Source: Sphingomonadaceae bacterium
GTDB taxonomy: Bacteria > Pseudomonadota > Alphaproteobacteria > Sphingomonadales > Sphingomonadaceae
Direction of reading: 5' to 3'
Assembly (NCBI GenBank): GCA_025359445.1
Contig: JANYGB010000019.1
Span: 61,478-125,477 of the forward strand
DNA: 64,000 nt
Both the position numbers and the translations under genes were made by a program. Each line of letters starts with the position of its first letter. The stretch's first letter is position 1. Below the pieces are notes generated by a model, which worked only from the letters and a program-made list of their open reading frames with translations, was not told the origin of the DNA and searched no databases. Shown one piece after another: positions 61,199-63,635 of this stretch.

Positions 61199-63343
61199 AT
61201 GGACTTTGCTGAAAATGAAGCGCTGCCGGAAGGTGGCTTTGATACCTATTTCCCCGTGCTCCAGACCTACGCCCGGAGCGGTGCCGTGCGGAAACTCTCT
61301 GGCCTCGCGGAACTAAGCTTTATCGGCGGACGGGCTGGCGATTGGCAGGAAGACTGGGAACGCGACATTGGCGCCGCACTCTCTGAGATTCCTGGACTCA
61401 ATGGGGGAAGGCGCGCCCGGGTGATGGAGCGGCTAAAGGACCACTTCTATCGCGGTTGCGATGCCAATCTTTCGGATGCGGCGAGCCCGCCGCAAATGGC
61501 TCGCGACTTCGCTAGCGGCCTCACACTCGTGGCCGCGCAACGTGTGAAGCGGGCATCGCCCGAAGCCGTTGACGAGGCTATTGCCGCTGTGGCGGAGCAA
61601 GTGGCCCGGGACCTTCCCGTGAGCATCCCAAGCGCGGCCCGCGCGACCATGGATGCCTTCCGCGCGCAAGGTATCGTTGGCACGCGCATTGCCGAATGCT
61701 TGGCGGTGCAGGCCGCACGCATCGGCTGGCGCCAGCGCGGCGGGTTCGCTGCGGAATTGCGCGAGATTGAGGGCGAGGTTTACGCCCACGAGTATGCATG
61801 CGCCGGTGAGGCCGTTTCCGCGCACGCCGCCGCTCTTGCGGAGCGCCATCACGACGGTGTTGAGGTGGCAGTGGAGACGGCCCTTATCGCCGCGGACCGC
61901 CATGGCTTCGATGTCCAGCCGGAACATGCCAAGATTGCCCGGGACGCGGCCAGCGCTGCTAAAGCGCGGATGATCGAAAGGTGGGAGGCCGATGAGGCAG
62001 CCGAGTCCTATCCCGTCAACGCCAAGCCGCCCGCATGGTGGATTGAGCATTGCGAGGGTGGCGTCCCGGACCGCTTCGAACTGGAGCGCGAGCCCGGGCT
62101 CTTGGGTGACCTTGCCCGCTGGAGCGTCAACTATGCCTTCCGGCCCGTGCCAGAGTTCGCAGCGCTCGTGGCGCTGGCCACCCTCGCCCCGGTTTTCTCA
62201 CGCCGGTTCGCTACGCCAACGGCGGCCGGGCTCAACCTCTACCTCATCGGGCTCGCGGAAACGGGCGGTGGCAAGGAGGCGGTCATCGGCGCGCCGCAAG
62301 CTTTGCTTGGCGCGGCAAAGCTGGACTTCCTCATTGGCGCTGGCGACTTCACTTCGGACTCCGCTATTGAATTGGCGCTCCGCAGTCGGCCTAACTTCCT
62401 CGCGTGCATTGATGAGGTTTCGGAGTTCATCGGAGCCGCTCAACATCGGAACGCCGCCGCTCACGCCCGCACCCTCCGTAAGGCCATGTTGGAACTCTAT
62501 AGCAAGTCACGTGCGGATGCCCGTTGGTCCGGCAAGCAAAAAGTGGACGCCGACAATGCCGATAAGGCAGCAACGCCCATTTACGCGCCACACCTCTCGC
62601 TTTTGGGGTGCGCAACAGTGGCCGGGTTCTTCGAAGCGCTCACGGATGGCAACCTCACGGGCGGTTTCGTCAACCGCTGGATTGTGGTCCGCGGTGGGAG
62701 GCCCGGCACCTTCAACGCGGACCCGGCCCGGCTGGCAGTGCCGAACGATCTGAAGGCTGCGCTCGCGGCCGCCTACGCGGACGCCACCAAGGGCAACCTT
62801 AGTGATGGCGCCGCGCGTGACCCGCTCCGCCAGCCGCACATGCGCATCGTGCCGTGGGGCGACGGCGGCGAAGAGGCGTGGCACTCCATCCTATTGATTC
62901 AGGCGGAGGCTGTGGATGCGGGCCGTGGCGATGTCGTTGGCCGCGCGGCGGAAAACTGCCTCAAGGTTGCAACCATTCGCGCACTCGCCCGGGAGGGGCT
63001 TAACGCGGCCGTCACGGACCGGGACGTGCTTTGGGCGTGGGAAATTGTCCGGGCATCTGTGGAGACTGTGGAGGTGGGCGCCCGGGAGAATATGGCCGGG
63101 TCCGAATTTGAAATGCTCGTGAAGACCATGGAGAGTCACATCGTGGGGGCCGGGCCGGAGGGCATCGCGTGGACCAAGCTACTGGAAAAGCGCGGGGTGT
63201 CTAAACACACGGACGGGATGCTGGACGGAGCACTCAAGCGCCTTGAAGCCCGCGACGTCATCTACAAACCAGCCATTGGCACCGGGCCGAAGGGAGGACG
63301 GCCGGGCCTTCGGGTGGTGGCCACCCAATTTACCCGCGAATGA
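61199..63343 (+). CDS. DUF3987-like primase/helicase-type protein
   Basis: PEFAALVALATLAPVFSRRFATPTAAGLNLYLIGLAETGGGKEAVIGAPQALL...FLACIDEVSEFI...PHLSLLGCATVAGFFEALTDGNLTGGFVNRWIVV; in-frame TTG at 61139. Confidence 0.65.
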   Translation: MDFAENEALPEGGFDTYFPVLQTYARSGAVRKLSGLAELSFIGGRAGDWQEDWERDIGAALSEIPGLNGGRRARVMERLKDHFYRGCDANLSDAASPPQMARDFASGLTLVAAQRVKRASPEAVDEAIAAVAEQVARDLPVSIPSAARATMDAFRAQGIVGTRIAECLAVQAARIGWRQRGGFAAELREIEGEVYAHEYACAGEAVSAHAAALAERHHDGVEVAVETALIAADRHGFDVQPEHAKIARDAASAAKARMIERWEADEAAESYPVNAKPPAWWIEHCEGGVPDRFELEREPGLLGDLARWSVNYAFRPVPEFAALVALATLAPVFSRRFATPTAAGLNLYLIGLAETGGGKEAVIGAPQALLGAAKLDFLIGAGDFTSDSAIELALRSRPNFLACIDEVSEFIGAAQHRNAAAHARTLRKAMLELYSKSRADARWSGKQKVDADNADKAATPIYAPHLSLLGCATVAGFFEALTDGNLTGGFVNRWIVVRGGRPGTFNADPARLAVPNDLKAALAAAYADATKGNLSDGAARDPLRQPHMRIVPWGDGGEEAWHSILLIQAEAVDAGRGDVVGRAAENCLKVATIRALAREGLNAAVTDRDVLWAWEIVRASVETVEVGARENMAGSEFEMLVKTMESHIVGAGPEGIAWTKLLEKRGVSKHTDGMLDGALKRLEARDVIYKPAIGTGPKGGRPGLRVVATQFTRE

Positions 63344-63635
63344 TGGGGTTATTCGCCGAATAACCCCTAACCTTTCGAAAAACCTCTAGCCGCAGAAATC
63401 CGCCACAAACCAGCCCAAAATAGGAGGTTATTCTAAAAAAGAGATATGTCTGAATCTTTGGAGTGAGTGTGTTTCAAGGATTCTCGTACAAGGTGGTTGG
63501 CGTGGGCATATTCATTTCCACGGGAGTGGGTTGACGCGAAATTAGAATAACCCTCCAATTTGAGCCCGTTTTTGGCAGTTTTCCGTGCACGGAGGTTTTT
63601 CGAAAGGTTAGGGGTTGTTCGTCGAATAACCCTCA
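63343..63635. repeat. long inverted repeat with nested palindrome downstream of primase-like gene (candidate ori/control region)
   Basis: Blocks ~63343-63438 and ~63541-63635 are mutually inverted; perfect 23-bp core CCCCTAACCTTTCGAAAAACCTC (63364-63386) / GAGGTTTTTCGAAAGGTTAGGGG (63592-63614); GGGGTTATTCG-C-CGAATAACCCC at 63345-63367. Confidence 0.85.

Follow-up and report, generated by a model that had tools for sequence, protein, structure and literature searches.

A mirrored motif array immediately 3' of a DUF3987 helicase gene as the probable replication origin of an alphaproteobacterial satellite-like element

Immediately behind a DUF3987 gene, in the 64,000-nt stretch of DNA analysed here (the window), lies a mirror-ordered array of short motifs. 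We propose with good confidence that an integrated satellite-like element replicates from this region, which the adjacent DUF3987 helicase would bind via GGTTNTTCG iterons. Set against related phages and known phage satellites, the segment is most likely the element's own origin; it is best read as a PICI-type origin variant, whose inverted arms are unusually long, in a satellite-like element integrated at tRNA-Ser. The idea of an origin, put forward in an earlier note on this DNA, gains support from two comparisons: repeat clusters of divergent sequence hold the same 3' position in most close phage relatives, and published PICI origins share the layout (PMC6092414). The region represents a concrete candidate origin for an alphaproteobacterial satellite-like element.

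The array consists of two arms of 91 nt each, the left one at 63346..63436 (+ strand) and the right one, its inverted copy, at 63542..63632 (- strand), separated by a 105-nt spacer (63437..63541, no strand). In an ungapped alignment the arms pair at 73 of 91 positions (80%), with the longest perfect run covering 25 nt (63362-63386), and the outer end forms an exact 11+1+11 palindrome, GGGGTTATTCG-C-CGAATAACCCC, made of two motifs back to back (63345..63367, no strand). The motif GGTTNTTC occurs eight times within 285 bp, four times per arm, at 63347(+), 63358(-), 63377(-) and 63426(+) on the left and at 63545(-), 63594(+), 63613(+) and 63624(-) on the right; the spacings between motif starts are mirrored exactly (11, 19 and 49, then 49, 19 and 11). 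The other 63.7 kb contain eight further copies (16 in the 64 kb), a density at which 0.036 would be expected in the region (Poisson P ~6e-17), and all five occurrences of GGTTATTC in the 64 kb fall within the repeat region. Similarly, the region holds 43 repeated 8-mer pairs in a 300-bp window, against a maximum of 13 both in 500 shuffles and in the rest of the last 14 kb (522 windows). Folded as DNA, it reaches z=-10.4, with none of 100 shuffles equally good. The inverted blocks of about 95 bp, the perfect 23-bp core (contained in the 25-nt run), the palindromic outer end and the recurring motifs described in the earlier note are therefore all real.

Differences between the arms are concentrated outside the motifs, affecting 1 of 32 motif positions versus 17 of the 59 remaining positions (Fisher p=0.0024). 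Motifs kept on a diverged background are the pattern expected of an inverted duplication diverging under motif retention. Alternatively, the inverted repeat might work in RNA, as a hairpin that terminates transcription of the operon or directs its 3' processing; the predicted RNA fold is indeed strong (-136 kcal/mol, z -10.4). However, the stem would have to span a 105-nt loop, the single terminator-like site is at chance level, the short motifs are kept between the arms while the remaining stem diverges, and relatives carry numerous repeats, both direct and inverted, in place of a single hairpin. We consider a hairpin function quite improbable.

GC content is low across the whole segment, at 45.7% in the spacer and 46.2% in the arms, compared with 62.5% in the window. 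The spacer had been described as about 100 nt long and of lower GC; the length agrees, whereas the GC does not distinguish it from the arms. For 30-mers, GC in the last 14 kb reaches its minimum (23%) at about 63417-63459, where the left arm passes into the spacer, and on this basis we regard the AT-rich tract (63417..63459, no strand) as a candidate melting site. DnaA boxes (TTWTNCACA, at most one mismatch) are absent from 63344-63721, which sets the region apart from DnaA-dependent iteron plasmid origins.

Two bases separate the end of the helicase stop codon (63343) from the left arm (63346). The repeat region is single-copy in the 2.96-Mb genome: the 64 kb contain no second motif cluster, and the region has no further match elsewhere in the genome. 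With its 91-nt arms and its spacer, the inverted repeat does resemble a transposon end pair, a MITE or an inversion site, yet no target-site duplication was found around it, its two long motifs have no exact match among 2.9 million viral contigs, and the one copy fits exactly into the gap after the stop codon, all of which makes such an element hardly credible. A dispersed MITE unlinked to primases, the outcome that had been named as speaking against an origin, is excluded for this genome by the single copy, the missing target-site duplication and the position directly after the helicase gene.

The gene preceding the array (61199..63343, + strand; start at ATG 61199 or TTG 61139) encodes the proposed initiator, whose sequence and modelled structure look like those of an AAA+ helicase that could double as initiator. 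Residues 235-652 match phrog_3022 (phage DNA primase family; E 6e-57), and PF13148 is matched under its curated cut-off (E 7e-4). An AlphaFold2 model built from 13 sequences is confident over approximately residues 292-690, comprising the helicase and the C-terminal part. Its top PDB fold match is an MCM helicase (E 3e-5), with a low overall TM-score and poorly modelled N-terminal 290 residues; a single-sequence structure model has a mean pLDDT of 39. In the AlphaFold2 model the C-terminus shows the predicted secondary structure of a winged helix-turn-helix, so that both the helicase and the winged-helix fold are predicted. The Walker A-like motif has the sequence GGGKE, in which GKE, in place of GKS/T, is conserved across the five aligned sequences.

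No primase domain was detected in this protein. A Prim-Pol domain occupies the N-terminus in 12 of 12 phage relatives scanned; in its place the window protein has 290 residues that are unrelated and mainly helical. Because the Prim-Pol domain of the relatives is absent, the label "primase" is unsupported for this gene: the array does directly follow a helicase-like gene, as first noted, but the primase part of that description falls away. With a helicase lacking a primase domain, priming must come from elsewhere.

Around the array, the gene order is tRNA-Ser(CGA), integrase, helix-turn-helix (HTH) protein, 231-aa protein, DUF3987 gene, repeat region and the start of a minor-tail-like gene. Outside the element, a lone chromosomal ORF (53619-54410) resembles, judged by eye, an HTH protein of the small-terminase type. 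The tRNA-Ser(CGA) gene (57902..57989, +; ARAGORN, Rfam tRNA) is the probable attachment gene and is directly followed by a tyrosine integrase (58192..59376, +; PF13356, PF22022, PF00589; phrog_1 E 2.5e-47) with an uncertain start codon, an upstream TTG at 58072 being possible. A small AlpA/excisionase-like HTH protein (60252..60446, +), recognised by weak matches to HTH_17 (E 9e-4) and phrog_66 (excisionase/regulator; E 3e-4), overlaps by 4 nt with the ORF of the 231-aa protein (60443..61138, +), which has no family match in Pfam, PHROGs or NCBIfam. Behind the array, the 5' part of the minor-tail-protein-like gene (63722..64000, +; phrog_1924 E 3e-9) runs into the contig end at window position 64000, which cuts the element.

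Neither the element's other end nor a second attachment site was found, other contigs of the genome included, and other genomes of the genus gave just short chance-level matches inside the gene and no element. The three capsid and large-terminase families tried (PF05065, PF03864 and PF03354) have no match anywhere in the draft genome, and their absence from this draft assembly favours a satellite or remnant rather than a complete prophage. Packaging (cos/pac) and partition sites of such elements can likewise be repeat arrays in noncoding gaps, a likeness that the present array shares. However, terminase and ParA/ParB genes are not seen beside the repeat, and the layout follows the replicative helicase gene from one relative to the next; a packaging or partition site is thus very improbable.

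Single-sequence protein searches with the DUF3987 protein gave no matches in the genome or in viral contigs. For the latter an alignment query was used instead and recovered 14 further loci; the best phage protein matches belong to Rhizobium and Sinorhizobium phages (36-39% identity). We compared the 500 bp 3' of the gene in 15 non-redundant close phage relatives of the helicase (35-40% identity), calling a cluster at an excess over shuffles of z at least 3. Short repeats are in excess directly 3' of the helicase gene in 12 of the 15 (7-mer z 3.2 to 28.9), although several of these phages are interrelated and the independent cases are fewer than 12; in 8 of the 12 no other window of the locus is as repetitive as this segment. 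The gap after the gene is filled in most relatives with dense short repeats in both orientations, often adjoining a TATATA-rich stretch. A very AT-rich stretch is visible in several relatives, with a lowest 30-bp GC of 10-23% in the six loci measured. The clusters are syntenic and divergent, the repeat varying by phage (TTTGGAATTG in RHph_TM3_3_14B, and TTTTTGCAACR, GAGCGTGCAAA and GGAAATCAGGAA in others). The search beside related DUF3987 genes suggested in the earlier note therefore returned clusters at the same place but not the window's own motif, which was found in no relative.

In the remaining three close relatives (L038, L039 and L019) no cluster is detectable in the 500 bp examined, and in L019 another ORF comes after the helicase gene. 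Among six distant DUF3987 phages the cluster is missing in five, Synechococcus phage Ssp-JY40 being the one that has it. More distant loci from the same bacterial family show one clear cluster (L024, z 8.9), weaker ones in L025 (4.7), L028 (4.9), L023 (4.0) and L022 (3.6), and no significant repeat excess in L026, L027 and L029; in L023 an integrase gene also lies upstream of the DUF3987 gene. Co-variation between the predicted recognition helix and the iteron was looked for among the phages and none was seen. This helix hardly varies from phage to phage although their repeats differ, which places the match between protein and motif beyond the reach of co-variation.

The phage loci also help to judge whether the motifs are operators through which the HTH protein or the helicase would regulate the gene downstream, with an inverted layout that reflects dimer binding. 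The palindromes made by back-to-back motif pairs are operator-typical, and the repeat region lies upstream of the gene at 63722. Nevertheless, a search for a sigma-70-like promoter found none, eight mirror-ordered sites over 285 bp exceed the usual operator, and the clusters in relatives track the helicase gene and no particular downstream gene. We consider control of transcription an unlikely explanation of the array, which could also serve a dual use as origin and operator.

The origin reading agrees best with known PICI systems. PICI origins are located immediately 3' of the initiator gene, where two iteron sets flank an AT-rich site; for one of them, replication was tested, and pri-rep-ori of EcCICFT073 gave plasmid maintenance (PMC6092414). 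This organisation was stated to be shared by no other known bacterial replicon (PMC6092414), whereas the sequences of the phage loci suggest that it is wider, extending to phages with Prim-Pol-DUF3987 replication genes. As in PICI/SaPI origins such as that of EcCICFT073, the window's site immediately follows the proposed initiator gene and has two iteron sets (four motifs per arm), and the element shares the order integrase, AlpA-like HTH, replication gene, the HTH matches being weak. PICI elements further possess a site-specific tyrosine integrase with an attachment site and, lacking a capsid and large terminase of their own, are packaged with the aid of a helper. The window has a tyrosine integrase beside tRNA-Ser, with one attachment end only before the contig ends; three capsid/terminase Pfam families are unmatched in the genome, and a minor-tail-like gene is present. 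Unlike in PICI/SaPI origins, each 91-nt set is here the inverted copy of the other, the spacing mirrored, and no primase domain was detected in the initiator candidate, a DUF3987 helicase. PICI origins are AT-rich between the sets, a feature that the window shows in part: the spacer as a whole has 45.7% GC, and a tract of 23% GC lies on its left side. DUF3987 is itself among the primase models used in finding Vibrio PICMI satellites (PMC10803314).

The clusters of RHph_TM3_3_14B and Sinorhizobium phage AP-16-3 stand at the same position as the window's, behind a homologous helicase (36% identity over the helicase part), with repeats in both orientations. They differ in repeat sequence, in their shorter and less symmetric arrays, in an AT-rich spacer and in the presence of Prim-Pol; neither record has an origin annotation at the cluster. 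In satellite P4, the short iterons of ori and crr are bound by a helicase protein via its C-terminal winged helix, and the two sites are separate, crr being a pair of direct repeats. The window would share the short iterons and a helicase protein with a C-terminal winged helix, but it has one inverted-repeat site beside the gene, no second cluster, and no primase domain fused to the helicase. The P4 ori/crr comparison made originally hence gives way to the PICI/SaPI type, which fits better by its position immediately 3' of the initiator. The origin of the Vibrio cholerae PLE likewise has satellite iterons with inverted sub-repeats bound by the element's own initiator, which is, in contrast to the window's, a RepA_N protein that is predicted to lack both helicase and primase activity (PMC7145576).

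From these comparisons we infer protein-iteron binding, melting, double loading and replication at the array. The C-terminal winged helix of the DUF3987 helicase would recognise the GGTTNTTCG iterons, and the four iterons per arm in mirror order may bring two helicase assemblies face to face. Melting would occur in the AT-rich tract where the left arm meets the spacer, and the element would replicate following excision. A more specific version, which we offer tentatively and regard as somewhat doubtful, is that an origin built as a near-perfect mirror duplication loads two MCM-like DUF3987 helicase-initiators head to head and that the satellite initiator has lost its primase domain. The mirrored arms provide a clean test of whether iteron orientation sets bidirectional loading of an MCM-like phage helicase, and the simple rule of looking 3' of the DUF3987 gene could yield candidate origins in many unannotated phages. 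Very strong repeat arrays also occur elsewhere in two of the phage contigs, with 842 repeated 8-mer pairs in 300 bp near position 8700 of L039 and 508 near position 1 of L045.
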